Part shown: positions 32,029 to 56,218 of the stretch, one piece after another
Layout of the letters: every line of letters starts with the position of its first letter
How positions within the stretch are numbered: position 1 is the stretch's first letter
DNA from: Odontesthes bonariensis
Lineage: Eukaryota; Chordata; Actinopteri; Atheriniformes; Atherinopsidae
DNA length: 64,000 nucleotides
Direction of reading: 5' to 3'
NCBI RefSeq assembly: GCF_027942865.1
Contig: NC_134510.1
Coordinates: 33,788,663-33,852,662, forward strand
Notes under the pieces: generated by a model
The model's database searches: none
What the model was told of the DNA's origin: nothing
What the model saw: only the letters and a program-made list of their open reading frames with translations
Position numbers and translations under genes: made by a program

Positions 32029-33254
32029 GGCAAGGCAAGGCATCTTTATTTAAATAGCGCATTTCATACCACAGGCAACTCAATGTGCTTTACATAAAGA
32101 CAAGGCATTTAAAAGAACAGCATAAAGCAGCATAAAAACAAGCAATTTAAAGAGAAAAAAAATAGAATAAAAATTAAAGCAATCAAAGAAGAGGGGAAAA
32201 GAAATATATAAACTCAACCATAAGCACACCGAAAGAGAAATGTTTTTAACCTGGATTTAAAAGTGCTTACAGTTGGGTCTGATTTCAGTTCTGCTGGTAG
32301 TTTGTGCCAGTTGTGTGCAGCATTACAGCTAAAAGCTGCTTCACCGTGTCTAGTTTGAACTCTGGGCTCCACTATCTGACCTGAGTCAGCAGATCTCAGA
32401 GCTCTGCTGGGTTTATACTCTGCTAGCATGTCATTCATGTATTCTGGACCTAAACCATTCTGTGATTTGTAGACAAGCAGCAGAACTTTAAAATCTATTC
32501 TGTATCTGACCGGTAGCCGATGTAAAGACTTGAGAACTGGGGTGATGTGATGTGATCTCTGTGTTCTGGTTAAAACTCGGGCTGCAGCGTTCTGAATGAG
32601 CTGCAGCTGTTTGACTCTTTTGGGGGAGTCCAGTCAGAAGACCGTTACAGTAGTCGAGTCTGCTGGAGATGAAAGCATGAATCAGCTTCTCCTGATCTGT
32701 TTGGGACATGAAACCCTTAATTCTGGATATGTTCTTAAGTTGATAAAAGGCTGATTTGGTGACTGATTTGATATGATTGTTGAAGGTCAGGTCTGAGTCT
32801 ATCAGCACGCCGAGGTTCCGGACTTGGTCTTTAGTTTCTAGAGACAGTGACTCAAGATGTTTACTGACAGCAAACCTCTTCTCTTTGTTGCCAAACACAA
32901 TGACCTCAGTTTTTTCTTGATTTAACTGAAGGAAATTTTGGTTCATCCACTTTTTGACTTGCTCTAAGCAGTCGCACAATGACTCTATAGGACTGCAGTC
33001 ATCTGGAAACAGTGCGAGATATATCTGTGTATCATCTGCATAGCTGTGGTAGTTGACTTTAGAGTTCTTCAGAATTTGACCCAGAGGCAGCATGTATAGA
33101 GTGAACAGAAGGGGTCCAAGAACTGACCCCTGAGGAACTCCACATGTCATAGCCACTCGATCAGATTGATTACTTCCAATAGTCACAAAATAACTCCGCT
33201 CCTCCAAGTAGGACCTGAACCATTCTAGGACTGTCTGAACCATTCTAGGACTGT
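32029..33254 (-). mobile_element. 5'-truncated non-LTR retrotransposon (Rex1/CR1-L2-like)
   Basis: The - strand encodes the second half of a reverse transcriptase. CGVPQGSVLGPLLFTLYM and HSYADDTQIYL (the YADD active site) lie near 33150-33040, followed by NFLQLNQEKTEVIVFG. The frame breaks near 32630 and resumes in another frame as LRSADSGQIVEPRVQTRHG to the stop at 32214. The 3' tail at 32029-32100 has the ATTTAAATAAAG then GCCTTGCC pattern. The 5' part, including the endonuclease, is missing, and a 20-bp tandem duplication lies at the truncation point (33215-33254). Not active. Confidence 0.9.
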
Positions 33255-33353
33255 ATATACAATACAATATACAATCATTGTAAATATTAATAATTGTTTT
33301 GAGCTACTTGACTAATTAGAATGTCCCCCAATGGGGGGTGAATAAAGTATTTT
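33255..33353 (+). repeat. LINE 3'-end fragment abutting a microsatellite
   Basis: Contains TGTCCCCCAATGGGGGGTG followed by AATAAAGTAT, a hairpin plus tail typical of a fish LINE 3' end. The following (TATTC)n tract would then be its tail repeat. Confidence 0.55.
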
Positions 33354-33419
33354 TCTATTCTATTCTATTCTATTCTATTCTATTCTATTCTATTCTATTC
33401 TATTCTGTTCTATTCTATT
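33354..33419. repeat. (TATTC)n microsatellite
   Basis: About 13 pentanucleotide units with one TGTTC variant near the right end. Confidence 0.95.
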
Positions 33420-34322
33420 TCCTGTTACACAAAATACCATTGACATCAGTTTAGCATAATAATCTTACTTTAGCATTAAGAGTTTTCATTTGTGCTTCGT
33501 TGGGAGTGTGAGTATAATTTTGTATTTTTGTTTGAAACATTATGATCAGTCCAATATAGCAGCACCTTAAAATCACATTTCCATAGCTTCCATAGCACAA
33601 GAGCGTAGGCAAGGTGCTCCTGACATAGAGCAGTGTTTTATGGTGATGCAGCCTTGTACCACACTGGCACAAACAACAGTGTAATTTCTTCTATGACAAA
33701 AAGTCCAATTTTAAAAGAAAAAAACTACACTTTATATACAGATTTATACACATACATATCTTAGTAAAATACACAGATTTAAGCAGGAATGTTTTATCTT
33801 TGGTTACCCCTGCAAGTTAATTTGAGTAAGGTTTGCATTTGTCTATTTGTTTGTTATTCAAAGATCAATTTATATGAGAACTATTGACCATAGATATCAC
33901 GTCGTCTCACGTGCGCCACTGTGTGAGGCATTTATGAATGAACTTTCCAGACTCCCCTGGATCTGATTATTTTTTATGAAGAACAGTGGGGGAGTTCATG
34001 TATTTTTCTTTAAAGTTTTGACCATTAGTAATTTACCTTGTGATATATTTAAAACTTCATTAGTTTGTAATCAATATTTTCATCTGAAAAATATCTTCAA
34101 TTTCCCAGAGTACACTTTTATTCTGTAAAAGTACATTTTTGCTGTGACCCATCCACCCCTCTATGAGACCGCAGTGGTACATTCCTAATGACAGCTCCTT
34201 TTGAGCTAGCGTTCATTTCTCGAGCATCACACTGTCAGAGCCACGGACAGCATTGATTTAACCAAAAAGTTGGCGTTATATTTGTGTCATTGCAGCTTCA
34301 TTCAACACTTAAAACCACCAAC
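33420..34322. other. Intergenic / ankmy2 upstream region
   Basis: No coding sequence seen. The ankmy2 promoter and 5'UTR must lie in the right part (roughly 34100-34322), but no TATA box or CpG-dense block marks the start. Confidence 0.4.
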
Positions 34323-37300
34323 ATGTCTGCTCCTAAGAAGGGAGACTTGTCTTCAAGCGAAAAGGAGCTGTTTGAGGTTATTACTGCGGGTAAGCCTCTT
34401 CGGCTAACGCTAATCCCTGGTTAGCTTGTAGGATAAGGAACATATGATGCTAATAGATGAATGTCAGCGTAAATTTTTCCCAACTTCCTTTCTTAATCAC
34501 GGCAGTCAGTTTAGTTTTCTTGTGTGGTGTGTTAGGAACCAAAGTCTTCAACCTCCGTGATCTTATATCACAAGATAGAAGAGATAGAAATTTCAACATG
34601 ACCGTGAAAGTGTAACAGTTGCGTGACTTTAGAGCTGCATAGCAACTTGTGTTAAAGCTTGTAACTGTATTTATGTGTAAAAATAAAAATGTAATTTTGT
34701 CTTTTAAGGAAATGTTCAAGAAGCCTCCAGGCTACTGGGCTGTAAGGATGTTCGAGTTAACTGTTTGGACGAGGTAACAGAGTATTTCAGACACAAGAGG
34801 GGTAAACTTTGGTTTACAACGTGACCAATAGACTGAGATTCTTCCTGTTTGGTTGAGAGTGATGTTTTTGTTGTTTTCCTATTACTGGTGGATTGTTTAT
34901 TCGAACAGAAAGAGTTTGTAAAGGAGCAAAACAGACACAACTAAAACTTAACTTAATCTTAAACCCTTACTTTGGGGCAACATAATTCACTATGTGTGAT
35001 TCTGCAAAAACGATACTATACTGTTTCTTACTTGATGTTTTATCCAATACTATTGTGTTGTGCAGATTTTGTCAGCTCTTTGTCTCATCCACAGTATGGG
35101 ATGACTCCCCTCATGCACGCCGCGTACAAAGGAAAAGCAGATATGTGCAAGTTGCTGCTGCAACACGGAGCAGACGTGAATTGTAATGAACACGAGCATG
35201 GATACACAGCACTGATGTTTGCCGGCCTTTCAGGTGCGTTTTGATGTAAAATGTCAAACCTGTAGCATGTTTTTTCTCATACAAATAATCTAATTAGACA
35301 TATGAGGGGGAGTGTTGTGACTCTTGTTCCTCTGTGCCTGAAGGGAAAATTGATATCACGTGGATGATGTTGGACGCAGGGGCTGAAACAGATGTAACCA
35401 ACTCTGTTGGACGGACAGCCGCGCAGATGGCAGCCTTTGTTGGTATGTTGATATCAAACATGTCCTCAATCTCTCAGTATTTAATCGTTGTCGGATCACA
35501 AATCCTTCTTTGTCGGTTAGAATATCATTTTCCTGTTCATGTTATATCTTGATATAGTTAGCTGATAAATGATTGTCTTTATCTAATGATGATTTAAACA
35601 TGAAAAAGGCACCTCACTCAATGGATGAACCAGTGTTGAGTCTACACATAATTGTCAACTTAACGATTTAACTTAACTTTAATTTAATTAACTTAATTTT
35701 AAATAGTATATTAAGGTGCTTTGTTACTAGTAGATTTTCACAAAGACACATAATTTGTTCACATTTATTTAGCTGCATCTACAAAAAAAAAATGCAGAAT
35801 AGTATTTTTGCACCAACAAGGTGATTCTCAAAGAGTTATTAGCTGGAAACGTGGAATAATTCATCATGGGTGCAGCGTGTTCTGGACAAGTGGAGGACAG
35901 AAGAAGAAGTGTCAGGCCTAAAGAACTATCTACAGCAGATGAACAGGATCTGAAAGTGATGTCCTTAAGAAAGAGGAAAAAATCCAGCAAAGACCTGACA
36001 CAGGAGCTGAGAGATGCATCTGGACCTTCAGCTGATCCATCTGCTGTTGGCCCAAGCCTCATCAGAAATGGGCTCCATGGAAGGGTGGCTGTCAGGAAGC
36101 CGTTCTTCAGGAAGGGAAACAGGGAGAAAAGGCTGAGCTGTGCCAAAGGACACAAGAAGTGGGCTGAAAATCAGTGGCAGCAGGTCTGATGGAGGGATGA
36201 ATCCTCCCCAGAGCCCAGACCTCAACATTACTGAAGCAGTGTGGGATCATGTTGGCAGAGAACGGAACAAAAGGCAGCCCACATTCAAAGAAGAGCTTTG
36301 GGATGTCCTTCAAGAAGCCTGGAGAACTATTCCTGAAGACGCCTTAAAGAAAGGACAGAAAGCTCGTCTGAGAGGGTTCAGGCTGTGCTGGAGGAGAAAG
36401 GAGCTCAGATCAAATATTCACTTTAAGGCTTGTTAGAACTGTGCAACTCTGATTTTTGCCTTATATCTTGTAGTTCAATTTATTCATATTGAAAAATTTC
36501 AGTAAATTGTTGCATCTGTCTCACGTTTTCTGGCAATATATTAGAAAATATTGGGAGTGGCACAAGACTTTTGCACAGTATTGTACATGGATGATCTCTT
36601 TAGAATATAGTTCTGTTACTATAGCAGGTGGAGAACACTGTTGTCACTAAAATGTTTTAGTTGCACAATTCCAGATGTTGTTAGCTGTGGATTTGTTCCA
36701 TCTGTGGTCTGAAAACTCAAAAGGATGTACCAGCTTTAGGTTTAAGTTGCTACTTAGACCCCTTCTGTCTTTTTTTTAAAGTAGCATATATCTATAAAAA
36801 TAAACCACCTCCTCTTTTCCTCCACAGGGCAACACGACTGTGTCACAGTGATCAACAACTTCTTTTCACGTGCTCGACTGGACTACTACACCAAGCCTCA
36901 GGGTTTGGAGAAGGAACCCAAGCTGCCGCCAAAACTGGCTGGACCCTTGCACAAGGTCATCATGAGCACTAACCTGAACCCTGTTAAGGTGAGACTGAAC
37001 ATGCGGGATCCAAAGAGGCCATGACTTTGTTGTTATTTTTTAAGTTTTTCTTCAAACGTTGACTAAAATTATTCATAATTCAGACCTGCACCGGCCATTT
37101 TTAAATGTCAACTGAGCATCTCCTACCTCTAGACCTCACAAGCAGTCGTTTTCATTGATCAAATCCCTCCTTTAATCATTGGGGAAGTTATCAGAGAACT
37201 AGATAGAAATGGAATTTTCTATGTATTGATAGAAATGTCCTCGTTGTTATTATTATTGATTTAACCAAACACAACTAGAAATGTTAAAGAGACACAGAAC

Positions 37301-39862
37301 AAACATATTAAACACTTAAGGCCAATATTTTATTGTCTTAAAACACTCTAGATAACACTTGTGAAGTTTAAGATCTGAAATGGTTTCATCTTCATTGACT
37401 TTTTGAGAAGGGGGGGTCACATTTGATTTCTTATTGTTAGTAATACTTTATCTTTTAAAATAAAGAAGATGAAATGTAGCACACAGATAAGAGATCTATG
37501 AGGGCCTGTTCACGGTTAGTGGTCTGTTCGTAATCCTGGAGAGGAAGTTGCCTTTTGGTGTTTCGATTGTAAAGCTGATGAAAAGATTTTTTTAAACTAT
37601 AGTTTCTTCATTCATCTTACATATGAATATCACATCACTTTGCTCACTAAACATGTAATTGGAGACAAAATCTTAAGCTCAAGTTGCAGTTGGCGTACTA
37701 TGTTAAATGTTAAACTTATCGCTTCTTCCTTTCTGTGCCGTATGATGCTGCATTTCATGTACCTTTTTATGTGGTACGTTTGCACTCAAAATCTTTTATT
37801 TTTCTTTTACATCGGGATAAACTAAAAAGTTTTTCTTTTAACCGTGTCAGTTGGCCTTTGGTGAGACCGTGGCCGAGTTATCGGCTTGGAAATCCAACAT
37901 TTTGTGACATTTTCTCTTAATTTATCCTCGTCGGAGAGCTGAAACTCGGGCTTCCCCGTTATAATTGAATACAACAAATATACAACATCCAGTATTCGGG
38001 AAAGCAGACAGACCATAAACAGTCTCAGGGTAAAGCAGTAAATCAGAGAAATAAAACGTGATTTTCCATTGATTTATCAGGGTTATGTTCTTTATCTCGT
38101 ACAAACCTCCATACAACCCAGCACAGCTGCTGAGTCGGCTCATTTTTATGTCTATTTTCAGTCCGTGCTCTGCTGACTGTGCGTGACAGCATTTTAAAAC
38201 GTGCCCTAAGTCTTTATAGTCTTTACACACAGTTGTGGCCGTTGTCCACCCTCCCTCTGCACAAAGGTTGTGGCCTAAAAATGTTCCTTACAGCAAAATA
38301 AGAACAAATGAATGAATTCTGAACAAGTGAATTATAAAAAGTCTCTTGGAACGACATGGATATTTTCTGGTGTTTTCCAGCTGGTGATGCTGGTGAAGGA
38401 AAACCCGCTGCTTGCAGAGGTGGAGGCTCTGGGTAAATGCCGGCGGGTGATGGAGCTCATCTGTGAGAAGTGCATCAAGCAGCAGGACATGAACGAGGTT
38501 CTGGCCATGAAGATGCACTACATCAGCTGCATGCTTGGAAAGTGCGCCTCTTTCCTCAAGGACCGCGAGGACAAGCTGGAAGGCCTCATAAAAAGGTGGA
38601 AAATCCACTTTCGTTAATCAATCCCTTGAGGTTATTTTTAGCTTTTTTTTTTTGTTTTGGAGATGTCTTGATACACACGAGGAGGCAACATTTTGCGGGT
38701 TGATGGAAACCCGGCTCATGAGTGTGATATTGAAGAATACTTCGTCTCACATTTAATCTCTTTGTGGTTCTTCAGTTTGCTGAAGGGTCGAGACAGCGAT
38801 GGTTTCCCCGTGTACCAAGAAAAGTTCATCAGAGAGTGTATCCGCAAGTTCCCGTACTGCGACGCAACTCTGCTGCAGCAGCTGGTGCGGAGCATCGCTC
38901 CCGTGGAAATTGTGAGTTTTATTTTGATCAAACTTTCTGTGTCCTACTCAGGGGAATTATTCTGGTGTGAAAATGAAGATGGAGGACAAACTCCTCCATG
39001 TCTTCCATAATTTGAATGTCTGTGCTTTTGATCTCCATGCAGCGACTGATGGTTTTGTTTTCCTCTTCACATCCCCGCAGGGTAACGACCCCACAGCTCT
39101 GTCAGTGCTGACCCAGGCCATCACGGGTCAGGTCGGCTTCATGGATGCAGAGTTCTGCACCTCCTGCGGAGAGAAAGGAGCTGAAAAGAGATGCTCCATC
39201 TGTAAAATGGTGAATGTCAAAGCTACCAGATAAGGTCCACATGGGAGGCTTTAAAGAAGTGTTTTTTATTCTTTTTTATGCTGGGGATCATTGACTCGTC
39301 ATTTAGAGTCACAGCAAACGTTATGTGCTTGGTTTCATTTCATAGCAGCTTCTGGTGGCCTTTCTTTCTTTCACCGACATTTAATCTCTGCTCAAATAAA
39401 GCAAACTTCCTTTTTCCTTTACCTTGTTTAATCAGGTGATCTACTGTGGCCAGTTCTGCCAGAAAATGCACTGGTTCACCCACAAGAAAGTTTGTAAGAA
39501 GCTCCAAGAGCAGCGAGAAAAGCAGGAAGCAGAAGCAGCCAAACTGAGGATGCAGCAGAGCAAAGGTAATTCATCTACAGGCAAAAAAATGGATTCATAT
39601 AGCACCAAATCACAACAAATGTCCTCTCAACTTCAAAGATATAGTCCAATTCTAATCCAATAAAATCAGATCAGTTTAAATCCAAATGAGCACACAAAAT
39701 GGCTGGCTTCAAACTGAAGTGACGTCTGGTGTTTCAGAGGAGAGTGAAGCTGTGCAGGAGGCCACGGACTCCATGCAGGAGCTCTCAGTGGAGACCAACA
39801 GTGAGGTCGGCCCCTTAGACTCTGCCGCAGACTCCTCTGCCGTCGCAGCTGCTGACAACTGA
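34323..39862 (+). CDS. ankmy2: Ankyrin repeat and MYND domain protein 2
   Basis: Scaffold protein linked in vertebrates to cilia and Hedgehog signalling through transport of adenylyl cyclases. Ten coding exons: 34323-34389, 34709-34773, 35095-35233, 35344-35442, 36828-36988, 38381-38595, 38776-38911, 39081-39209, 39436-39565 and 39738-39862. All are GT-AG and phases join, giving 421 residues (human 441). Residues 46-78 (GMTPLMHAAYKGKADMCKLL) and 81-112 are ankyrin repeats, with a third from about 115 (SVGRTAAQMAAFVGQHDC). The middle contains DMNEVLAMKMHYISC. Residues 320-357 form a complete MYND zinc finger: C320, C323, C332, C335, C341, C345, H353, C357. The acidic C-terminus ends AAADN and is shorter than in human. 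A poly(A) signal AATAAA lies at 40649-40654. Confidence 0.95.
35580..36588 (+). mobile_element. Tc1/mariner element, internally deleted (copy 1)
   Basis: Lies in ankmy2 intron 4. The right end reads AGACTTTTGCACAGTA, a Tc1-type terminal repeat ending at the TA target; the left terminal repeat is eroded. The + strand carries the transposase N-terminal half to about 36190 (GLHGRVAVRKPFF, GHKKWAENQWQQV). It then jumps directly to the C-terminal segment (PQSPDLNITEAVWDHV and EELWDVLQEAWRTIP). The block with the second catalytic Asp is missing. The same junction occurs in the copy at 53.5-54.7 kb. Confidence 0.88.
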
Positions 39863-40670
39863 GGAGCTTCTTAACACTCGATGACAACGGCCGCCTTCTC
39901 CACCATACATCCATCCGGCCCGGACAGAAACTGGCACCAAGAGGGAAAGCCAGACAGAGACGGGTCTGGGAGCAGGAAAAAAATCCATATTTATTATCAG
40001 CCTGAGACACCAGATGAAGAAGCATTGTGCCACAGCCGTCATCTTTTCGTCCATTTTCAAATGATGTTGTCATTTGTGAATGTAAATACTACATAAGTTA
40101 ATCTTTCGGAGGAACTGAGAGAAATGTGAAGAGCTCAACGGTTCCCGTCCACGATGGAGCGAAAATCTGCCTTAAGAAACTGTAGCAACCTGCAGGAAAG
40201 AAGTGACTGTGTGGCCAATCAGAATCGTCTGTTTGCAATGCACCCGATTGTTATCGAGATGTTTTTATACCGACAGCCTCTGCGTGTGGATGGCACGGCT
40301 GCTCAACGTTGACCAAAAATGTGTGTTGATATTTTTTAAATGTGAATGGTGTAAAGATGAGTTTATCTCAGTGTGTTGTAAATGATGTCACTGCTCAGGA
40401 TGTTTTTCAGATTAGAACTAAATTAAAGTTTTTTTTCCCTTAAATTGAAGCAACATTGTCGTGCACAGCGCGGTAACACCTGTCGGTTTGTTTTGAAGAA
40501 TACGATCACTTTGATTTTGGTACTTGTTGTTGTGCAGCCTGAACGGACAGAGGAGCTGAAGTCAAACGTCTTGTCCGGTTTGTGTGTGTGTATGTTCTGA
40601 AAGCTGATGAGTTCCAGTGTGTCAACAGACCTGATCCCAACTCCAGTAAATAAAGACCAACTTCAGCACC
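39863..40670 (+). other. ankmy2: ankmy2 3' untranslated region
   Basis: Follows the ankmy2 stop codon. The AATAAA at 40649-40654 is the likely cleavage signal. Short ORFs here are not conserved-looking. The 11-bp satellite starts about 170 bases further on. Confidence 0.6.
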
Positions 40671-40838
40671 AATTTTCTGAGTCAGTTTTCATCTTTTACT
40701 GGCATGTTCCTTATTTTTCCAGTTTTTCTTTGTGATGGTCTGATCTGAGAAAGCACCAGAAAGCCAAAGGGTTCCCTATTTAGCAGAAACATCTGTACAT
40801 TTGAATGCAGCCGAGTCATTAAAACTGCCTAAATACAA

Positions 40839-43800
40839 GCATGTTAGAAACATGTTAGAAATATGTTAGAAGCATGTTGGAACCATGTTGGAACCATGTT
40901 AGAAGCATTTTAGAAACATGTTGGAACCATGTTGGAACCATGTTGGAACCATGTTGGAACCATGTTGGAACCATGTTGGAAACATGTTGGAAACATGTTG
41001 GAAACATGTTGGAAGCATGTTGGAACCATGTTGGAACCATGTTGGAAACATGTTGGAAGCATGTTAGAAACATGTTAGAAGCATGTTGGAAGCATGTTAG
41101 AAACATGTTAGAAGCATGTTGGAAGCATGTTGGAACCATGTTGGAAACATGTTGGAAGCATGTTGGAAGCATGTTAGAAACATGTTAGAAGCATGTTGGA
41201 AGCATGTTAGAAACATGTTAGAAGCATGTTGGAAGCATGTTAGAAACATGTTGGAACCATGTTGGAACCATGTTGGAACCATGTTGGAACCATGTTGGAA
41301 ACATGTTGGAAGCATGTTGGAAGCATGTTAGAAACATGTTAGAAGCATGTTGGAAGCATGTTAGAAACATGTTAGAAGCATGTTGGAAGCATGTTAGAAA
41401 CATGTTGGAACCATGTTGGAACCATGTTGGAACCATGTTGGAACCATGTTGGAAACATGTTGGAAACATGTTGGAAGCATGTTGGAAGCATGTTAGAAAC
41501 ATGTTAGAAGCATGTTGGAACCATGTTGGAACCATGTTGGAACCATGTTGGAACCATGTTGGAAACATGTTGGAAACATGTTGGAAGCATGTTGGAAGCA
41601 TGTTAGAAACATGTTAGAAGCATGTTAGAAGCATGTTAAAAGCATGTTGGAAGCATGTTGGAAGCATGTTGGAAGCATGTTAGAAACATGTTGGAAACAT
41701 GTTGGAAACATGTTGGAAACATGTTGGAAGCATGTTGGAAGCATGTTAGAAGCATGTTAGAAGCATGTTGGAAGCATGTTAGAAACATGTTAGAAGCATG
41801 TTAAAAGCATGTTGGAAGCATGTCAGAAACATGTTGGAACCATGTTAGAAGCATGTTAGAAACATGTTAGAACCATGTTGGAAGCATGTTGGAAGCATGT
41901 TAGAAGCATGTTAGAACCATGTTAGAACCATGTTAGAAACATGTTGGAAACATGTTAGAACCATGTTAGAAACATGTTGGAAACATGTTAGAAGCATGTT
42001 GGAAACATGTTAGAACCATGTTAGAAACATGTTGGAAGCATGTTAGAAACATGTTAGAACCATGTTAGAAACATGTTGGAAGCATGTTAGAAACATGTTG
42101 GAAGCATGTTAGAACCATATTAGAAACATGTTGGAAGCATGTTAGAAACATGTTAGAACCATGTTAGAAACGTGTTGGAAGCATGTTAGAAACGTGTTGG
42201 AAGCATGTTAGAAACATGTTGGAAGCATGTTAGAACCATATTAGAAACATGTTGGAAGCATGTTAGAAACATGTTAGAACCATGTTAGAAACGTGTTGGA
42301 AGCATGTTAGAAACATGTTGGAAGCATGTTAGAACCATATTAGAAACATGTTGGAAGCATGTTAGAAACATGTTAGAACCATGTTAGAAACGTGTTGGAA
42401 GCATGTTAGAAACATGTTGGAAGCATGTTAGAACCATATTAGAAACATGTTGGAAGCATGTTGGAACCATGTTGGAAACATGTTGGAAGCATGTTAGAAA
42501 CATGTTAGAAGCATGTTGGAAGCATGTTAGAAACATGTTAGAAGCATGTTAGAAGCATGTTGGAACCATGTTGGAACCATGTTGGAAACATGTTGGAAGC
42601 ATGTTGGAAGCATGTTAGAAACATGTTGGAAGTATGTTAGAAACATGTTAGAAACATGTTAGAAGCATGTTGGAAGCATGTTGGAAGCATGTTAGAAACA
42701 TGTTGGAACCATGTTAGAAGCATTTTAGAAACATGTTAGAAGCATGTTGGAACCATGTTGGAAACATGTTGGAAACATGTTGGAAGCATGTTGGAAGCAT
42801 GTTAGAAGCATGTTGGAAGCATGTTAGAAACATGTTAGAAGCATGTTAAAAGCATGTTGGAAGCATGTTAGAAACATGTTGGAACCATGTTAGAAGCATG
42901 TTAGAAACATGTTAGAAACATGTTAGAAGCATGTTAGAAGCATGTTGGAAGCATGTTGGAAGCATGTTAGAAGCATGTTAGAACCATGTTAGAACCATGT
43001 TAGAAACATGTTGGAAACATGTTAGAAGCATGTTGGAAACATGTTGGAAACATGTTAGAACCATGTTAGAACCATGTTAGAAACATGTTGGAAGCATGTT
43101 AGAAACATGTTAGAAACATGTTAGAAACATGTTAGAACCATGTTAGAAACATGTTGGAAGCATGTTAGAACCATATTAGAAACATGTTGGAAGCATGTCA
43201 GAACCATGTTAGAACCATGTTAGAAACATGTTGGAAGCATGTTAGAAACATGTTGGAAGCATGTTAGAACCATATTAGAAACATGTTGGAAGCATGTCAG
43301 AACCATGTTGGAACCATGTTAGAAACGTGTTGGAAGCATGTTAGAAACATGTTGGAACCATGTTAGAAGCATGTTAGAAACATGTTAGAACCATGTTGGA
43401 AGCATGTTGGAAGCATGTTAGAAGCATGTTAGAACCATGTTAGAACCATGTTAGAAACATGTTGGAAACATGTTAGAACCATGTTAGAAACATGTTGGAA
43501 ACATGTTAGAAGCATGTTGGAAACATGTTAGAACCATGTTAGAAACATGTTGGAAGCATGTTAGAAACATGTTAGAACCATGTTAGAAACATGTTGGAAG
43601 CATGTTAGAAACATGTTGGAAGCATGTTAGAACCATATTAGAAACATGTTGGAAGCATGTTAGAAACATGTTAGAACCATGTTAGAAACGTGTTGGAAGC
43701 ATGTTAGAAACGTGTTGGAAGCATGTTAGAAACATGTTGGAAGCATGTTAGAACCATATTAGAAACATGTTGGAAGCATGTTAGAAACATGTTAGAACCA

Positions 43801-46800
43801 TGTTAGAAACGTGTTGGAAGCATGTTAGAAACATGTTGGAAGCATGTTAGAACCATATTAGAAACATGTTGGAAGCATGTTGGAACCATGTTGGAAACAT
43901 GTTGGAAGCATGTTAGAAACATGTTAGAAGCATGTTGGAAGCATGTTAGAAACATGTTAGAAGCATGTTAGAAGCATGTTGGAACCATGTTGGAACCATG
44001 TTGGAAACATGTTGGAAGCATGTTGGAAGCATGTTAGAAACATGTTGGAAGTATGTTAGAAACATGTTAGAAACATGTTAGAAGCATGTTAAAAGCATGT
44101 TGGAAGCATGTTGGAAGCATGTTAGAAACATGTTGGAACCATGTTAGAAGCATTTTAGAAACATGTTAGAAGCATGTTGGAACCATGTTGGAAATATGTT
44201 GGAAACATGTTGGAAGCATGTTGGAAGCATGTTAGAAGCATGTTGGAAGCATGTTAGAAACATGTTAGAAGCATGTTAAAAGCATGTTGGAAGCATGTTA
44301 GAAACATGTTGGAACCATGTTAGAAGCATGTTAGAAACATGTTAGAAACATGTTAGAAGCATGTTAGAAGCATGTTGGAAGCATGTTGGAAGCATGTTAG
44401 AAGCATGTTAGAACCATGTTAGAACCATGTTAGAAACATGTTGGAAACATGTTAGAAGCATGTTGGAAACATGTTGGAAACATGTTAGAACCATGTTAGA
44501 ACCATGTTAGAAACATGTTGGAAGCATGTTAGAAACATGTTAGAACCATGTTAGAAACATGTTAGAAACATGTTAGAACCATGTTAGAAACATGTTGGAA
44601 GCATGTTAGAAACATGTTGGAAGCATGTTAGAACCATATTAGAAACATGTTGGAAGCATGTCAGAACCATGTTAGAACCATGTTAGAAACATGTTGGAAG
44701 CATGTTAGAAACATGTTGGAAGCATGTTAGAACCATATTAGAAACATGTTGGAAGCATGTCAGAACCATGTTAGAACCATGTTAGAAACATGTTAGAAGC
44801 ATGTTAGAACCACGTTAGAACCATGTTAGAACCATGTTAGAAACATGTTAGAAGCATGTTAGAAACATGTTAGAAGCATCTTAGAACCATGTTGGAAACA
44901 TGTTGGAAGCATGTTGGAAACATGTTGGAAGCATGTTGGACGCATGTTAGAAACATGTTGGAAGCATGTTGGAAGCATGTTAGAAACATGTTAGAAGCAT
45001 GTTAGAAGCATGTTGGAACCATGTTGGAACCATGTTGGAAACATGTTGGAAGCATGTTGGAAGCATGTTGGAAGCATGTTGGAAACATGTTGGAAGCATG
45101 TTAGAAACATGTTGGAAGCATGTTAGAAACATGTTAGAAACATGTTAGAAGCATGTTAAAAGCATGTTGGAAGCATGTTGGAAGCATGTTAGAAACATGT
45201 TGGAACCATGTTAGAAGCATTTTAGAAACATGTTAGAAGCATGTTGGAACCATGTTGGAAACATGTTGGAAACATGTTGGAAGCATGTTGGAAGCATGTT
45301 AGAAACATGTTAGAAGCATGTTGGAAGCATGTTAGAAACATGTTAGAAGCATGTTAAAAGCATGTTGGAAGCATGTTAGAAACATGTTGGAACCATGTTA
45401 GAAGCATGTTAGAAACATGTTAGAAGCATGTTGGAAGCATGTTGGAAGCATGTTAGAAGCATGTTAGAAGCATGTTAGAAGCATGTTAGAAACATGTTGG
45501 AAACATGTTAGAACCATGTTAGAACTATGTTAGAAACATGTTGGAAGCATGTTAGAAACATGTTAGAACCATGTTAGAACCATGTTAGAAACATGTTGGA
45601 AGCATGTTAGAAACATGTTGGAAGCATGTTAGAACCATATTAGAAACATGTTGGAAGCATGTCAGAACCATGTTAGAACCATGTTAGAAACATGTTGGAA
45701 GCATGTTAGAAACATGTTAGAACCATGTTAGAAACGTGTTGGAAGCATGTTAGAAACATGTTGGAAGCATGTTAGAACCATATTAGAAACATGTTGGAAG
45801 CATGTCAGAACCATGTTAGAACCATGTTAGAAACATGTTAGAAGCATGTTAGAAACATGTTAGAAGCATGTTAGAAACATGTTAGAAGCATGTTGGAACC
45901 ATGTTGGAAACATGTTGGAAACATGTTGGAAGCATGTTGGAAACATGTTGGAAGCATGTCTGAAGCATGTTAGAAACATGTTAGAAGCATGTTGGAAGCA
46001 TGTTAGAAACATGTTAGAAGCATGTTAAAAGCATGTTGGAAGCATGTTAGAAACATGTTGGAACCATGTTAGAAGCATGTTAGAAACATGTTAGAAGCAT
46101 GTTAGAACCATGTCAGAACCATGTTAGAAACATGTTGGAAACATGTTAGAAGCATGTTGGAAACATGTTGGAAGCATGTTGGAAACATGTTAGAACCATG
46201 TTAGAACCATGTTAGAAACATGTTGGAAGCATGTTAGAAACATGTTAGAACCATGTTAGAAACATGTTGGTAGCATGTTAGAAACATGTTGGAAGCATGT
46301 TAGAACCATGTTAGAAACATGTTGGAAGCATGTTAGAACCATGTTAGAAACATGTTAGAACCATGTTAGAACCATGTTAGAAACATGTTAGAAGCATGTT
46401 AGAAACATGTTAGAAGCATGTTAGAACCATGTTGGAAGCATGTTGGAAACATGTTGGAAGCATGTTGGAAGCATGTTAGAAACATGTTAGAAGCATGTTG
46501 GAAGCATGTTCAACATGTTAGAAGCATGTTGGAAGCATGTTAGAAACATGTTAGAAGCATGTTAAAAGCATGTTGGAAGCATGTTAGAAACATGTTGGAA
46601 CCATGTTAGAAGCATGTTAGAAACATGTTAGAAGCATGTTAGAACCATGTTAGAACCATGTTAGAAACATGTTGGAAACATGTTAAAAGCATGTTGGAAA
46701 CATGTTGGAAGCATGTTGGAAGCATGTTAGAAACATGTTAGAAGCATGTTAGAAGCATGTTAGAAGCATGTTAGAAACATGTTGGAAGCATGTTAGAAAC

Positions 46801-47036
46801 ATGTTGGAAGCATGTTAGAACCATGTTAGAAACATGTTAGAAGCATGTTAGAACCATGTTAGAACCATGTTAGAAACATGTTAGAAGCATGTTAGAAACA
46901 TGTTAGAAGCATGTTAGAACCATGTTAGAACCATGTTAGAAACATGTTAGAAGCATGTTAGAACCATGTTAGAACCATGTTAGAAACATGTTAGAAGCAT
47001 GTTAGAAACATGTTAGAAGCATGTTAGAAACATGTT
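40839..47036. repeat. 11-bp minisatellite/satellite array, about 563 units
   Basis: Direct tandem repeats of the unit CATGTT-R-GAA-V, where R is A or G and V is A, C or G. The whole 6.2 kb is therefore a string of about six monomer types with rare other changes (CATATT, CGTGTT, CATTTT, GTATGTT). By coordinate arithmetic the CATGTT words stay in 11-bp register from 40840 to 46505. A single 9-bp unit (46505 to 46514) shifts the phase once, and the array then runs on to its end. The left part is TTGG-rich and the right part TTAG-rich. Most units with V=A contain the palindrome ACATGT. Since 33 bp is eleven codons, every frame reads the same 11-residue repeat, which creates spurious ORFs on both strands. 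The array lies between the 3' ends of ankmy2 and lrrc72. Confidence 0.98.
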
Positions 47037-47704
47037 CCAGCACTTTACACAGAAAACTGATGCAGGTCTGAGACACAGAGTGACGGTGATTTTATTCATG
47101 GATAATTTGTTCCTCTATTAGTTTTTGTCTCTTCCCTTTAATCGTACATCCACAATCAGTTTCCATCTCCAACTTGTTATTTCTGGCTTAGTTTTGTGTT
47201 AGCAACCAAATTAATCATTCATCGTTTGAGCCCATTATTTTGTCATTATCATTTTTCCCGGCTCTGAGAGTGGTACATTTGAATCTCTTTTTAATCTTAT
47301 TGGATCATCCATCATAGTTTCCCAACTAATGATGGTCATTTTGCACATTGATGGACATTCAGCTCTCTTTCTGAACATTTTGAATCCCATTTTCATGTTG
47401 TGGTCCCATTGAGGTAATTGAGGATGTTTCTGGTCTTCTTATGTGATGCTTCTGATCTTTTGAGAATTTAATTTGACAAAATTTGAATCATCTTTTTGTC
47501 ATTTCCATTATTTGGTGTTTTACTTTTGTTATTGAGCATATTTGGCCATGAATGGCTCCTTTTGCGGCGAATTTTGACCATCTGGTGACTGATTTAGGTC
47601 ATTTGCACATCTCTGTGGGTAAGTTTAAGTTTGTGATGCTAAAAGCTGTAGAGATGACATTTGATTAGCAGTATCTTGACTTTGACAACGTCCAAGTTTG
47701 CCTT
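47037..47704. other. Unique sequence between the satellite and lrrc72
   Basis: No gene found. It contains loose repeats of a CATTTG/TCATTT-like word. A TTTATT at 47091-47096 is an alternative - strand poly(A) signal for lrrc72. Confidence 0.5.
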
Positions 47705-47821: not shown

Positions 47822-50800
47822 CTACTGTTTATGTCTGCCAAAGGCCACCGACTGGAGAACACGATGATGATCCTGGTTGAAAATCTGGAAGGATCTTTTC
47901 CGCTCTGATGGTTTAATTTCTGACAACACAACAAAAGCCGGAAAAAAAGGCAAAATGTAAGATTTCATAAAGACGAAGCGTTGGTCAGAAAAGTCCCTCT
48001 GAGGGTACGTAAACCATACCTTTTCTGTCTAAGATTTGGATCGATGGCAAGCAGTGGATCACATGGTAGCGATACCCAGGTTCATGAGACATGGGATTCA
48101 GGAAAAAAGCTGCAGTTTAAAAAAAGAAAACATTGTCACATCTCAGTGTCTCCAGGTTGATGTAAATCAGTCGGATCCTTGCAGACGCCTTTTCCGGCCC
48201 CGGAGGGCGCTCTTTATCACGGGTCTCACAGTTTGTCACTCACTGGCGTTTTGCAGCTGCTGCATCCTCCTTAGCTCATGCATCGCGTCCGCCAACCCTC
48301 TGATCTGGTTGTTGTGGAGATACAGGAGTCGAAGGCAGGTCAGGTGATTTAGGGCACCTGTGTGAGAGGCGGAAATGAAAAATTACACGATGACACGATG
48401 ATTTGTCTTCTACAATAAAGCTTGTTACACTGAGCTCATATGGTTTTCATTTCCCCACAGAATGTTTTACATGGAAAAGATAAATGTTCAAGGTAAATGT
48501 TACTCTTTTTCTTGACTACATCTGTTTGGCAGATCAAATTAATGAAAAACATCCAAGACATTTTTTGAGGATTAAACAAGGGTTTCCCAAACTTTAATTC
48601 AAAAGGAAAACTCCACTTGAGCAGATTTTTTTTGCTTTCATTGCCTAAAATATGAGCAATTTTCCACAAGCATTAATTAGTCCAAAGGAGTAAAGTATTT
48701 AGTTGGTAACAAAACAACCCTGATTGATCAACTCTTAGTTTTCTACTTGTAAAAATAGTGCTATAGAATGGTTTACTCTGTTAGTAATGGAGTGTTTTTA
48801 CATTGTTGTTTTGGTATCTTAAATCAAAAACTCGAATATTTCTGCCACCACCTCCTTAGATTTTAAGACATAGGTTCTACACGCCATTAAAATCCATCCT
48901 TTTTATACTCAAAGGAGAAATAAAGTTGCACCTTTCACAGATTTGATGCTATTATGTTGAAGGTAAAGTTCAGTCAAGCAGCAGTTGAGGGAACGACAGC
49001 TGAGCTCTCTGATCTGGAAGAATTACAGTAGAAATTAAATCACCTTCCACTCAGTTTAACTCGCATGCGATATGGAATGATGCGAGTGCCATAAAAATAA
49101 CAACTCTGTAAACAAATAAGAAAACAAATTAGGAAATATACACAGAAATAGATGAATAAATGTGGAAATAACCAATCGTGTTTTCTTTAATGCCATCTAT
49201 TTACTTTTACTCCTTATTTTTCACAATTTTGTCTGTGCTGTGTCCCCAAACTTTTGCTCTGAGTCACTCAGTTTTCAGCATCTTACCTCATAACTTACCT
49301 TGTTGCAAGAGGAAACTACTTTCCCCCTTTTTCACCTTAACCTCTAAATCTTTTTCTGAACACGTGAGGAAAGAAATAATCAGCAGAATAAGTAGCAAAA
49401 CCTTCACTCGCGTTACATGTACAGGACCTGAGTTCAGTCTGGAATTAAAGGCCCTGTCACACTGTTGCGTATGAGAGAAGCATATGAGTTGCGTATGAAA
49501 ATTATTACTCATACGCTGGTATACGCTGACATACGCCAGGGGAACGTTAGGCATAGATTGTATACGTTTCAAGCACGCTGGCATACGTTGGCATACGGCA
49601 TACGCTGAGGCAGAAATAAATTTTTGAACATGCTCAAAACTTTTGTGCGTATGGTTAATACGCTAAACATACGCTAGGCATACGCTGAATACGCTAGAGG
49701 TACGATATAGGTACGTTACTGATAGGTCGAGAACTCTGGACATAAGTTGCCATATGTTGGCATGAAGGTGTACCGTACAGCTAGCGTATTTATAGCCTCC
49801 GCCCGTCTGCCGCCTCCATCTCCGCCAGACGGGCGGAGATGGAGGCGGCAGGCAACCGACGATTCACAGGAGCGGTCAGGAGGAAGAGTTGGGGATCTTG
49901 ATCGCTCAGAAGCATGTAACTCATCAGCCGCAGGTGCATCAGGCATTTCAGCAGGTTTGGGTGAGAATGATTCTTGTGTTTTTTTGCCTTTTCCTCGGCC
50001 CAGGGCCCGGGCAAACGACGATTGCTTCTTGGGAGGCATGATCGAGATGAATGTCTCGAGAGATGTTGATAGCGCGTCGTCTACTGCAATATTGGAGCAA
50101 TGTGGAAAGGCTGCTGATATAGGCGCGTTGAAACGTACGCTGGGCATGCGCCGTTCATATGCTACTCATACGCTAGTCATTTTTTATTTTCAAGGACTTT
50201 TCGTGCGTATGAAAATTATATTATTAATTTTCATACGCAACTCATACGCTTCTCTCATACGCAACAGTGTGACAGGGCCTTAAGAATCAGATGGGACTGT
50301 TACACCCCAACAAAATGTCAGAACAAACTTATAATTCAGGTCCTGTAGATGTGACATAGATGCATGACACACCACCTGATTGGCTTAGAGCAAAATCAAT
50401 AGAGAAAAGCATACACACAGAAACAGGGGAATGAAAAAAAGAGTATAAAACAAAGTAAATGGAAAGAACAACATTTTTACTTACAATTATTCTTATTCTT
50501 TCCATAAGCATTGTAGGTAGAGTTTCATGGAAGCGTACCTTGTTATTGTTCAGCCACAGCCTCCTCAAAAAGCGAAATCTTGATAAATCAGGAACACTGG
50601 AGAGTTTTCTACACAACAAAAGGCCAGAAATTCCAAATACTGTCTTTAGATTGCCTCCTTTGTGTGAAAGTACTCGCAATACATGCTGGAGTTATTTGTG
50701 TAAGCAATATCTTTTTCTTACTTTTTGGCGAGACTAAGCTGGCAAACATCCATGTCCGTCTTTATTCCACGCCTCTGAAGAGACTCTTTGATGTCCTGTG

Positions 50801-50903
50801 TTTGGCGAGAGGACAGAAAAGTCTCAGAGGATTACATGAATGTGCAGTGAAAATGCTGCCAGTGTTTGTTTTAGATAAAGTTGTTCACCTCAGTCACCTC
50901 CAT
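47822..50903 (-). CDS. lrrc72: Leucine-rich repeat-containing protein 72
   Basis: Small LRR protein of unknown biochemical role. Rebuilt from seven coding exons in transcript order: 50903-50889, 50795-50722, 50608-50539, 49013-48932, 48357-48244, 48109-48020 and 47919-47822. All junctions are GT-AG with agreeing phases, giving 180 residues. Exon 1 encodes only MEVTE. Exons 2-3 join as SLAKK then KLSSVPDLSRFRFLRRLWL, the first LRR. Exon 4 gives NCCLTELYLQHNSIKSV. Exon 5 gives LTCLRLLYLHNNQIRGL. Exon 6 has the LRR cap (FFLNPMSHEPGYRYHVIHCL, then ILDRK). Exon 7 has KRSFQIFNQ and VLQSVAFGRHKQ before TAG. The human protein is about 100 residues longer at the C-terminus. Most exons are too short to show as ORFs. 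An AATAAA on the - strand at 47705-47710 fits the 3' end. Confidence 0.87.
49449..50280. mobile_element. PIF/Harbinger-type MITE, 832 bp, TAA target duplication
   Basis: The left end AGGCCCTGTCACAC and right end GTGTGACAGGGCCT are perfect complements. The inverted repeat extends about 56 bp with one mismatch (CATATG against CGTATG). The flanks are TAA at 49446-49448 and TAA at 50281-50283, the 3-bp TWA duplication typical of PIF/Harbinger. The subterminal left 250 bp holds many CATACGCT/ATACGCTA words. The interior has open frames on both strands; the - strand one starts MPPKKQSSFARALGRGKGKK and lacks any transposase motif. It sits in lrrc72 intron 3. Confidence 0.85.
49807..49851. repeat. 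20-bp perfect inverted repeat (hairpin) inside the MITE
   Basis: Arms 49807-49826 and 49832-49851 are exact complements (CTGCCGCCTCC to GGAGGCGGCAG) around a 5-base loop. The sequence is GC-rich and would form a stable cruciform or RNA hairpin. Confidence 0.9.
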
Positions 50904-51106
50904 TGTCTGCCGCTTCTCCAGAGCAGTCAGAGTGGTTGCCAGGAAACTCCTGCCATAACAAACAGAAGAGCGTTCTCTTTTATCCAAAAAGATACATGAC
51001 TTATCTGGGAACTCTGTAATGGTTTTAGGAGATTATTTCTGTTTGATGATACTTTTGCACATTTTAATCTTAGTCTGCAACACTTACCTGTATGTGAGAA
51101 AGATAT

Positions 51107-51120
51107 CCAGCAGAGGGCAG
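51107..51120 (+). promoter_or_regulatory. CTCF-like motif upstream of lrrc72
   Basis: CCAGCAGAGGGCAG fits the CTCF core CCASYAGRKGGCRS at all 14 positions. It lies about 200 bases upstream of the lrrc72 start. Binding is inferred from the motif alone. Confidence 0.45.
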
Positions 51121-53540
51121 TGTTGACAAGCAAAGACAGTTATTTCTCCCACAGTTTCTAAATGTCAGCAGTGAAGATCCAAAATATTTTCACATGGCTT
51201 CATCCTCCAAAGGCGAAGAGTCGGTTTAAAAATACAGAAACCGGCTCATTAACATCCTTTGTAAAAGGAGGAAATTGTTATACAACCTAGGTGCAAAACT
51301 ATCAAAAAATGGCTTCTAAAGAAGAGTCAGAAATCAGCTGCACATTCAATCTGAGGCCAGAAATGCTTTATCGACTTGAAATGTGTAGATCCCACTCTGA
51401 TTTGTTTTTGCAGTATGAAAACCACACACATCATGCACCCTTGCAGGCTCTATTGAGGTGGGAAAGTGTTTGAATTAACTTGTTTGACCATAAGTAATTA
51501 AATCAAATCTACAGAAAATCGATAATATCATTACAATTTGATTATATTCTCACACATCTATTGTTATCAATGCAAAGATGTTGAATGCATGACAAAGTTT
51601 AGGAATCTGCCATGAAGGAAAACAACTATTAGGAGCCAGGAAGAAAAGCCCACCAATCACGACAACCCCTACTGTAACCATGGTTACTTGGTTGAATGGC
51701 ATGACAGCCGTGGGGCGTGGCTTTTAAAGAAGAGCTGAAGCAAAGCAGAGAGGGAGGAAAAGGGACCTGTGAATTGTATTTATTCAAATTTGACAAAGTT
51801 CTGCATTTCATATACGCGCTAACTGTAAAGTGAAGTTGATTCTTTAGCTTTTGTTAGCATTTAAATTTTAAATCAAAACACAAGTTTCGACAAAAACTAC
51901 AAATTCTTTGGCAACTGGCTCAGCAGCATTAGGCCAGTGAGGTGTGGCGTGGTCATATTTAAGATGGTAACACCTCAGACTGACCCTAACGTAATCATGT
52001 CTGTCCGCTTGTTACAGACTTTACTAATTAGCTTCGCTTACAAAAAGGAGAACACCTGTCCTGTCTCTGTGAAATGATGATAAACTCTTTCTGGCAGCGC
52101 TCAAGCTCACTAAGAAAAACACAATTAGAAAATGTGTGAGTGAAGAAGCCACACATCCCATCTCGGGCTAAATATATGACTACGAAATGTCTTGGAATTT
52201 GGGAATCTTGGAGAAGTTGCCACAGTTCATCTGTGGTTTTTCTTCTGTCTCTTTATGTGATCCCAGACTGACAGCATGCTGTTGAAATGCTGGCTCTGCG
52301 GGGGCTTTATGATCTGTTTGGAAGACGTTTTGTCCCTACTGTGGCTGAAAATAATTCCTTGTGACTCTGGGTGTTTTGGATCTGCGCTCTGCTGCGAAAT
52401 GAATGCCTCTTTGCAAAATAAACATCCAGTGAATATATTGGTTTTGTACCATCATTACTGCATAAATACCAGCCTTGATTATAACAGGATAAACTCAGGA
52501 AGCAACATTAGTGCCCGAGACACAATCTGTCAACCGCTGTTTGTCCTCTGTTGAGAACTTTTCCAAACTGTGTCACCACAATGACCCCGACCTGCTGGCT
52601 TGGTTCCAGGTGTTGTGCATAGCTATTGTCCTCCTCCGGTTGCCCTCGCCACACCTCTCATTACTGCATACGGGCGCTTCCTGATCATGCACACACTCCT
52701 GCCGTCCTGCCTGTCAATATGCTCTTACACATTCACCTTTCACTTCCTATGAGGGTCGGGGGAAACAAGTTCCTGCTGCTGAGTTTCAGCGTGCAGAGAA
52801 AGAGAGGCACCTCTCAGTTTTCTCTTTCTTTGCTTAGCGAAAACACAAAAGCTGGCGCCTATCATATTTACCTTTCAGCATTCATTTAAGCCGGTCTCAT
52901 AAGAAGCTCAGAGGGGGCATCAAAGAGTAAATAGTCCTCCGAGAAGAAGCAGCCATGTTGTCCTTTATTTTCTCTCGGAAGTGGACTGAATGAACCTGCG
53001 GTGTCTCTGTTTGAGGAAGAACAAAAGAGATCGGAAACAATAACAGAGGCTGAGTGTGAAGTTTAATGACAGACTGCTCACCTGCTGAGTGGAGTCAAGA
53101 TGAAATAATTATTGAAGAGTTTGGTAAGTTTTAAGCTTTAAGAGTCTGGTACTTGTGTATATTCCTATTCCAAAGGGAATCATCAGACAGCTAAGAAGTG
53201 ACTGTTGAGATTTGAAAACTGATTTTTCCTTCTATCTGAACATTCACGGCAATAATGCAACTCACACCCATCGTACTACATGGGCCACCGAATGCTAAGA
53301 TGCACATACTGCTGTCACATGATCATGGAAACAAAGGGGAATCTGGATTTTGATTTCATTCTGAAACTGTTAGCTCTCTAAAGGGATCCAATTTAACTTC
53401 TTCTCTCGTGAAAGATTTTCAGATTCTGACACTCAGTTTTCAGTCTGTTTCAGGTCAAGCTTTAAGCGGGCTTTTGAAACATGAAGCATTTTGTGTGCAT
53501 AAACACATCTGGCTAGCTTACATTTGTTGTATAGTAGCCT
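51121..53540. other. Intergenic DNA upstream of lrrc72
   Basis: No coding exon recognised. ORFs up to 92 aa (52276-52554) have no family signature or splice context. Confidence 0.5.
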
Positions 53541-54670
53541 ACTGTGCAAAGGTCTCGAGAAAGTGTGTTTTTTTTGTTTGTTAAGCCACTTAATACTGGC
53601 CTATGAATCATTTAAGGATTAAAAAAAGACACCCAACGAAAAGTATTGTGTCTACATATAACAGATGAAACTCGTCTTAAAACCCATTTTTATTCCCTGG
53701 CTTTTAACCCAGCATGAGACTCTGTTTCTGTTGTTGTTTTGTTTTAATATTGTTATTGTTTATTGTTGTTTTTACATTGTTCTTATGTTTTATGCCTTAT
53801 ATTTCGTGTTGTTACTCATGTACAGCACTTTGTTTCAGCCACGGCTGTTTTAAAGGGCTTTATAAATAAAGTTGAGTTGAGATGAGAAAGAGCCTGTTTT
53901 AAATTGTATCTTTAGGGCTCTCTGTCACAAACACACATCATTTGTTCCCATTCATTTGGATGAATCTGCAACTTGTCAAAGATAGCCCAGTTTGACGGAC
54001 ATAAAACAGTATTCTTTCACCAACAATATGACTCCCTAAGAGCTATTGGCTTACAACTTGGCATATCTCAGGGTGGTGTGCAGCATGTCTTTAAAAAGTT
54101 TGAGGAAACTGGACGAGTGGAGGACAAAAGAAGTGTCGAACCTAAAAAACAGATCAACAGACCTGATACAGGACCTGAGAGATGCATCTGTGGCCCAAGC
54201 CTCATCAGAAACGGTCTCCATGGAAGGGTGGCTGTCAAGAAGCCGTTCTTAAGGAAGGGAAACAGGGAGAAAAGGCTGAGGTGTGCCAAAGGACACAAGA
54301 AGTGGGCTGAAAATCAGTGGCAGCAGGTCTGATGGAGGGATGAATCCTCCCCAGAGCCCGGAGCTCAACATTACTGAAGCAGTGTGGGATCATGTTGGCA
54401 GAGAACGGAACAAAAGGCAGCCGACACCCAAAGAAGAGCTTTGGGATGTCCTTCAAGAAGCCTGGAGAACTATTCCTGAAGACTCCTTAAAGAAAGGACA
54501 GAAAGCTCGTCTGAGAGGGTTCAGGCTGTGCTGGAGAATAAAGGAGCTCAGAGCAGATGTTCACTTTAGAGCTTTAAAACAAACTCTGTTTTTGCCTTAT
54601 AGACTGTGTGCATGTTTCAGTAAATCCTTACACCTACTTTCCATTTTCCTGGCAATATATAAACAAATTA
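53541..54670 (+). mobile_element. Tc1/mariner element, internally deleted (copy 2)
   Basis: The left end TACTGTGCAAAGGTCT matches the complement of the right end of copy 1. The + strand carries FHQQYDSLRAIGLQLGIS and KFEETGRVEDKRS (helix-turn-helix region), then GLHGRVAVKKPFLRKGNRE. After the same deletion junction near 54350 comes PQSPELNITEAVWDHV. The second catalytic Asp is missing. A LINE tail is inserted at about 53665-53885. The right terminal repeat is diverged or lost. Confidence 0.87.
53665..53885 (+). repeat. LINE 3' tail nested in the Tc1 copy
   Basis: Starts ATGAAACTCGTCTTAAAACC, contains TGTACAGCACTTTG, and ends TTTATAAATAAAGTTGAG with a GTTGAG tandem. It interrupts Tc1 sequence that is otherwise alignable with copy 1. 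Confidence 0.7.
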
Positions 54671-54719
54671 AAAGAACGTATTTGGAATTTTTCTTTCTGA
54701 CAGTTTGATTGTTGAATGA

Positions 54720-55110
54720 TGGGAAAAAATATCATAATGAACCTTTCTGTCCTTTTTCTTTTCCATCTTCATTTTCATCTTTCATCGTGTTTTCCCTTCT
54801 TTTTCTCACACTGTTTAATCTTTTCTTCTTTTCATTTCTGTTCTGCTTTCTTTTCCACAATCCTCACTGTCTTATCTCATTTAAATCATCCTATCTATCT
54901 CCCTTTCTCCCTTATACCCTTCTTAATGTCCTTTTTTTAGTTTTTGTTCTTTCCTTCAATTTTTACCATCATTCTACCCAATTTCCTTACTTTTTTTTTT
55001 ATCTTTCCTATCTGTGCCATCCTTCCTGTTATCTTTCCTTACCTTTATTGATTTGGTTATGTCCTATTTCTTTTCAATGCACACCGTACTTTCCAACTTT
55101 CAGATTTTGG
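54720..55110. repeat. Pyrimidine-rich (TC) tract
   Basis: About 390 bases almost purely T and C on the + strand, directly after the Tc1 copy. It resembles the tract at 4636-5165 in composition. The 166-aa ORF through it is low complexity and not a gene. Confidence 0.75.
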
Positions 55111-56021
55111 ATGTCAACCCTGTTTTGTATCAGAATAAATCTGAGCATGATTCAAACAATAACCTTTCATGAAGGACAAAAAAAACAAAGCATTTGTGTG
55201 ATTAATTGATGCAAATTGGCAAATTATCTCACATGCTGTATCATCTTTCATCCTCATGAGCAACAATTAGTGTCTGCACTTTTCATATCAGTAAGACAAG
55301 CCAGGAATGAGTGTTCCCCACAAAAGTAATTATATCTCTCTTTGTTTAGTACACCCCACTCACAAAGACTCCAGTTAGTCTGGGCACTCGCTCCTTCAGA
55401 CGTGTAACTGACAGGGAACGAGAGGATGGCAAAGGCAGACAGCAAATTACTCTCAGGCAGTGTCACCTTTCACTCGTGAATTAAACATGCACTCAAGAGA
55501 GACAAGTTACAGCGAAGAGAAAATGACAAACTAAGCAGAAAGTAAAACATTTTGCTGTTTTAAGCTGTCAGCTGTGTAGATGTTGTTGTGATTAATTCTC
55601 TTTCACTGCTGAAGATGAGCGCTGTGGACTCAAACTGTATTTGTAATCATTTCTGTTTGGTCTGACAGAAGAAGTCAGACATTTCACAATTTCTTTCTGT
55701 TCGTTTCAGCCTTGCTGGACTATATAAAGTCCATGAGCAAGACTTCATAGTCTTTGTATTGGATTGTACGCTGGATGTTTTTCAGAAAGTTTCGGATGGA
55801 TGATGTCGATTTGTGCTCCTCGGATGGTAACCTTTACTTTTCACATTTAATAACTTTAATGTTTCAGTTATCCTGGACTGTCTCCGTGAAGTTCACATTT
55901 TTCAGGTGTAATGTGTTTCTGATTTATGATGTGAACTGTGAACTATGAGGCTGTTTTTAAGTACTTTTTAAAATCTTTGTACAACGAATTATAAAACAAA
56001 GCAACACCTGTTCACTTAAAG
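55111..56021. other. Intergenic DNA without recognised features
   Basis: AT-rich sequence with no gene or repeat that I recognise. Confidence 0.5.
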
Positions 56022-56218
56022 TGGGAGCAGCTGAGCTCGGGAAGTAGAGTGGTCATCCTTCAGCTGGAAGGTTGCTAGTTCAATCCCCACCTTTCCAAGC
56101 CTACATGTTGAGCTATCCTTAGATAAGATACTCAACCCCACATTGTTCCCAGTGACTGTTCTTTAATTGTAAGTTGCTTTGGATAAAAGTATCTGATAAA
56201 TAAATGGATAATGAGGTA
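56022..56218 (+). repeat. tRNA-derived SINE-like element
   Basis: The head reads like a diverged tRNA, with a B-box-like AGTTCAATCCCC near 56080. The tail GCTTTGGATAAAAGTATCTG then AATAAATGG is shared with fish LINE/SINE ends. Confidence 0.65.

Follow-up and report, generated by a model that had tools for sequence, protein, structure and literature searches.

The 64,000 nucleotides of Odontesthes bonariensis analyzed in the present study (contig NC_134510.1, positions 33,788,663 to 33,852,662; hereafter, the window) contain two genes, ankmy2 on the + strand and lrrc72 on the - strand, which converge on a long tandem array of an 11-bp unit, CATGTTRGAAV. An earlier note on this DNA had counted about 563 direct copies of the unit between the two genes. 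We found 564 units, and the placement of the array between convergent genes was upheld by domain matches, one match to a solved structure and gene order, on which the gene names used here rest. Tandem Repeats Finder, a check that the note had proposed, recovered the array with a period of 22 (40837-47036, 281.9 copies, 88% matches) and, in a second row, with a period of 33 (40838-47036), in each case with 0% indels; a period-11 row is absent from its output for the array. The head-to-tail units obtained by an in-register parse include one 9-bp unit (46505) and the unit at the right edge (47031).

40838..47036, + strand: 564 head-to-tail units of the 11-bp sequence CATGTTRGAAV, all in the same orientation (Tandem Repeats Finder, pattern search and in-register parse).
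46505..46513, + strand: the sole out-of-register unit, 9 bp (in-register parse; one register break per 6.2 kb).

Variation is concentrated at two positions of the unit. Among the 563 units of 11 bp, position 7 is A in 330, G in 231, T in 1 and C in 1, and position 11 is G in 233, A in 204 and C in 126, with T in 0 of 563; at the remaining nine positions the commonest base occurs in 545 to 563 of 563. The description of the array as a string in a six-letter monomer alphabet with two variable positions thus holds, as the six types formed by A or G at position 7 and A, C or G at position 11 account for 508 of the 564 units. Singleton types make up 10 of the 564, among them the 9-bp unit and the right-edge unit. 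When the array is divided into twelve bins, the fraction of units with guanine at position 7 declines unevenly from 0.66 in the leftmost bin to 0.19 in the rightmost. When a two-unit pattern was searched with up to 3 mismatches, 562 matches were found in the window, against 0.02 expected from 100 shuffles. With up to 5 mismatches, 562 matches lie within the array, every one on the + strand, and two lie outside: the match at 19043 has 5 mismatches, and the other overlaps the left edge; at this threshold no other array of the unit is present elsewhere in the 64-kb window. Among the window repeats listed, the next longest tandem repeat is 67 bp. A short tandem-repeat cluster at 33209-33419 consists of a 20-bp unit and a 67-bp run of the pentanucleotide TTCTA.

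The order of the unit types has a layered block structure. Recurring 12-unit words (two or more occurrences) account for 62.2% of the unit string; the corresponding values are 0% for 200 shuffles of the monomers and no more than 4.3% for 200 first-order Markov strings. The strongest self-matches have lags of 138, 130 and 129 units and comprise 48 of 48, 39 of 40 and 35 of 35 units, respectively; the three best scores are 48, 37 and 35, whereas the top score of each of five shuffles was 6 to 8. Gapped alignment merges these self-matches into one 1.4-kb tandem duplication, with 124 matches and 1 mismatch in 125 aligned units and four indels of 9, 1, 1 and 2 whole units. Several smaller blocks are duplicated in tandem, and the right end of the array has further, shorter blocks of 4 and 6 units. 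There is also a weaker relation between units 289-377 and 386-470 (in a gapped alignment 71 units match, 8 do not, and indels of units are numerous), which is older than the 1.4-kb duplication.

41830..43303, + strand: units 90-223 (numbering starts at 0), the first of the two copies in the 1.4-kb duplication (self-match, gapped alignment).
43348..44766, + strand: second copy of the 1.4-kb duplication, units 228-356 (gapped alignment, 124 of 125 aligned units identical).
41126..41455, + strand: 14-unit tandem block (154 bp), a lag-14 run of 16 units (self-match).
41401..41620, + strand: 10-unit tandem block (110 bp), a lag-10 run of 10 units (self-match).
42182..42456, + strand: 9-unit tandem block (99 bp) within the first 1.4-kb copy, a lag-9 run of 16 units (self-match).
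44569..44788, + strand: second 9-unit tandem block (99 bp), a lag-9 run of 11 units (self-match).

These results are best explained, with a probability of about 0.83, by an expanded minisatellite, that is, a large variable number tandem repeat (VNTR), which occupies one intergenic locus, has grown by whole units through slippage and unequal exchange, and has no selected function. Although real and striking, the array is an element of an ordinary kind, a minisatellite that is very large and layered. Minisatellites have head-to-tail units of about 10-100 bp at one locus, as found here (11 bp, 564 copies, one orientation), and the order of the variant units shows gains and losses of blocks. A VNTR is recognized by a length that varies among individuals, and a satellite DNA family by many arrays of the same unit per genome, often heterochromatic. 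The earlier note had called the array a satellite; it is indeed a tandem array, but the term is generous because one locus alone was examined, and the array is more safely called an expanded minisatellite or VNTR. The note had also proposed a recent expansion. The two tandem 1.4-kb copies differ at only 1 of 125 aligned units and singleton types are few, which supports this proposal; however, the expansion was not a single burst, since the variants at positions 7 and 11 are shared array-wide and several rounds of block duplication are visible. Large minisatellites and VNTRs as a class share with this array a short unit, few variable positions, sharp edges, block duplications and gains and losses of whole units, the array being one locus as seen here. 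It differs from them in that a unit of only 11 bp extends over more than 6 kb, and in that its length variation is a prediction.

The probable course of events is as follows. The seed would have been a short CATGTT-bearing stretch in the small gap between two candidate poly(A) sites. When both flanks of the array are joined, a single CATGTT-bearing stretch is left, which is a plausible one-unit seed. The candidate poly(A) signals at 40649 (+) and 47091 (-) would lie about 0.24 kb apart if the array were removed; an ATTAAA is closer to the left edge of the array, at 40818.

40649..40654, + strand: putative polyadenylation signal (AATAAA) of ankmy2, with 183 bp between it and the array (motif only).
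47091..47096, - strand: putative polyadenylation signal (AATAAA) of lrrc72, with 54 bp between it and the array (motif only).

The first multiplication of the seed may have occurred by replication slippage, as short hairpins can form between neighbouring units in parts of the array; unequal exchange may later have added and removed blocks of 4 to about 130 units. We suggest slippage for the small steps and unequal exchange for the large ones because indels within units are few, blocks are of several sizes and the 1.4-kb duplication is nearly identical. Unequal exchange would also spread common variants and keep the array young, and the array may persist since the space between convergent 3' ends would tolerate added DNA. 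Folding was calculated for 110-nt stretches as single-stranded DNA, each against 200 shuffles: two of three + strand stretches of the array fold better than all 200 shuffles (z of -3.9 and -3.8), and two flank controls gave z of 0.0 and 1.2. Hairpins between neighbouring units may thus aid slippage in parts of the array. From the single sequence we infer that the array has been recently active, and its length likely varies between individuals, as the earlier note had supposed; we think that it has no selected function.

Several points weigh against the expanded minisatellite as set out above. Both 'recent' and 'variable' are read from the internal identity of one sequence alone, and a falsely duplicated assembly haplotype could be an alternative source of the 1.4-kb block. 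As for folding, the third + strand stretch shows no excess (z of 0.05) and the minus strand of one array stretch folds more weakly (z of -2.1); hairpins are therefore not a general explanation. As an expanded minisatellite, the array is a worked case of a very short unit reaching kilobases, and its variant map, next to two conserved genes, records block duplication at several levels.

Arrays of comparable length with short units often belong to families, and thus the array might be one locus of a genome-wide satellite family, seeded by a mobile element or an extrachromosomal circle. We consider this unlikely. With up to 5 mismatches allowed, the rest of the 64-kb window lacks the two-unit pattern, apart from the match at 19043 and that at the left edge; furthermore, joining the flanks yields a plausible seed of one unit, and no target-site duplication was seen by eye.

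Another explanation is suggested by the unit itself, as each contains AAVCATGTTR, which resembles a half-site for p53-family proteins, and neighbouring half-sites pair as full sites with a 1-bp spacer. The array would then be a natural operator array, on which p53, p63 or p73 load, regulating ankmy2 or lrrc72 or forming a nuclear focus. The half-site consensus is RRRCWWGYYY (PMC3386156). Of 530 decamers with a CWWG core in the array, 2 match it perfectly, 415 have one mismatch and 113 have two, so that 417 of 530 have at most one mismatch, in an 11-bp register; of the 495 full sites with the 1-bp spacer, 324 depart from the consensus at no more than two of 20 bases. Among 400,000 random 11-bp units of approximately the same base composition as the window, 1.7% yield a decamer with no more than one mismatch, a rate that is not striking because the p53 idea was formed after sight of the sequence, and the p53 half-site is the one motif that was scored. 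Tandem repeats bearing p53 sites control three mouse genes (PMC3386156). One report states that p53 tolerates short spacers, including 1 bp, and describes a p63 crystal oligonucleotide whose first ten bases are one of the decamers of the array (PMC6696488).

Nevertheless, we regard this role as improbable. Perfect decamers are not enriched, with 2 in the 6.2-kb array compared with 17 (and 71 with one mismatch) in the other 57.8 kb of the window, and 528 of the 530 decamers end in a purine, which is a mismatch. A p53 response-element cluster comprises several half-sites spaced 0-13 bp apart, of which at least some are perfect; the half-site spacing of 1 bp lies within this range, and to the 2 perfect decamers of 530 in the scored slice is added one across the right edge. 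The joined flanks, or empty site, also retain one perfect RRRCWWGYYY decamer.

47028..47037, + strand: right-edge decamer, a perfect RRRCWWGYYY, extending beyond the slice scored (read by eye).

The C and G of the core are not protected, as they are hit by 6 of the 14 changes in monomer type that affect the nine conserved positions, against an expectation of about 3 (the comparison is crude, since the types are not independent), and a coreless unit (CATATT) has been amplified to 13 copies. Constraint on these two bases, which the array does not display, is a supporting sign rather than a defining feature of p53 clusters, and known clusters of repeats with p53 sites diverge fast (PMC3386156). 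Among 7705 high-confidence p53 peaks, motifs with a 1-bp spacer or half-sites underlie just 1.1-5.1% (PMC7735755); one spacer base lowered p73 activity by 90% (PMC6696488) and transactivation tends to drop as the spacer lengthens (PMC2719629). In addition, the array sits at the ends of two genes and not at promoters.

Among known systems, the fuzzy tandem repeats with p53 response elements in mouse Rbl2, Ncoa1 and Klhl26 (PMC3386156) are like the array in having clustered p53-like half-sites and in evolving fast. However, the Rbl2 cluster is 117 bp long, lies in intron 1, has 6 perfect half-sites of 7 and has demonstrated binding (PMC3386156), whereas the present array is 6.2 kb long, lies at gene ends, has a fixed mismatch in nearly every decamer and is known from its sequence alone. 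The zebrafish transposon EnSpmN6_DR (PMC3485254) likewise places p53-like sites near genes in repetitive fish DNA, but it is a dispersed 346-bp transposon and not a tandem array. Since perfect half-sites are not enriched and the core bases are not protected, p53 binding is a minority reading, and we put the chance of p53-family binding with a biological effect below one in ten. The more ambitious version, in which a block-expanding operator array of hundreds of near-consensus half-sites in an 11-bp register, situated at one gene-rich locus, would load hundreds of p53-family molecules and its length, varying between individuals, would alter the local or global p53 response, is very doubtful. 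If p53-family proteins do bind, no other natural array of such half-sites known to us would come near this one in size, and it would allow a test of whether repeat length tunes the stress response.

Misjoined or haplotype-duplicated reads might have produced the array or at least its 1.4-kb duplication, as repeats are a known source of assembly error and the two 1.4-kb copies lie next to each other with very few differences, but an artefact is hardly probable, given that these copies differ by four indels of whole units, that the composition shifts along the array from a position-7 guanine fraction of 0.66 to 0.19, that the edges are sharp with gene parts in both flanks, and that 6.2 kb fits inside one long read.

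Other candidates were rejected. Among the open reading frames of at least 80 aa listed, four lie in the array (104-127 aa), clustered at its left end, where G predominates at position 7; a coding function was dismissed because they run on both strands, two per strand, and spell only the unit. No Rfam family matched at gathering scores anywhere in the window, and a three-unit pattern had 0 exact matches in collections of viral and prokaryote contigs, on which ground a prokaryote, phage or contaminant origin was rejected. At least one of four 10-mers of the unit is present in 273 papers; among the matches listed, the titles and the beginnings of abstracts appeared unrelated to any repeat. Nor was the array described in the papers listed by searches on the topic, although this is only weakly indicative of its absence from the literature.

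The flanking genes were recognized from their domains. On the left, the combination of two domain types, ankyrin repeats and a MYND finger, together with gene order, supports the assignment of the + strand gene as ankmy2. On the right, a peptide stitched by hand from four open stretches (two residues are not derived from the DNA) has leucine-rich repeat containing 72 as its best match among solved chains (E 2.6e-25). The leucine-rich repeats are visible only after the exons are stitched, since three unstitched - strand frames of 49000-64000 gave no Pfam family; two + strand frames of 26000-41000 also gave none. Single open reading frames had no or weak Pfam matches, further frames likewise remained without a match, and for one open reading frame from ankmy2 the closest solved structure was not a meaningful relative (E 0.95).

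35086..39495, + strand: domain-bearing exons of ankmy2, with ankyrin repeats at 35086-35238 (Pfam Ank_2, E 1.7e-9) and the second half of the MYND finger at 39427-39495 (zf-MYND, E 8.5e-6).
47988..50691, - strand: exons of lrrc72 (leucine-rich repeats), four open stretches with approximate borders (domain match of the stitched peptide).

Between the ankyrin and MYND exons of ankmy2 is a remnant of a Tc1-like transposase (HTH_Tnp_Tc3_2, 35968-36156), and a second such remnant is at 54204-54299; both are below the Pfam cut-off. The left end of the window has T-box exons on its + strand (507-635, E 1.3e-13; 2614-2784, E 6.6e-14). To the right of lrrc72, the + strand encodes a Sclerostin/DAN domain (61016-61408, E 3.8e-69), probably of sostdc1, and a weak IspD-like stretch (63255-63389, E 1.3e-5, below the Pfam cut-off), probably of crppa; the presence of sostdc1 and crppa beside lrrc72 is presumably the gene order of vertebrates.

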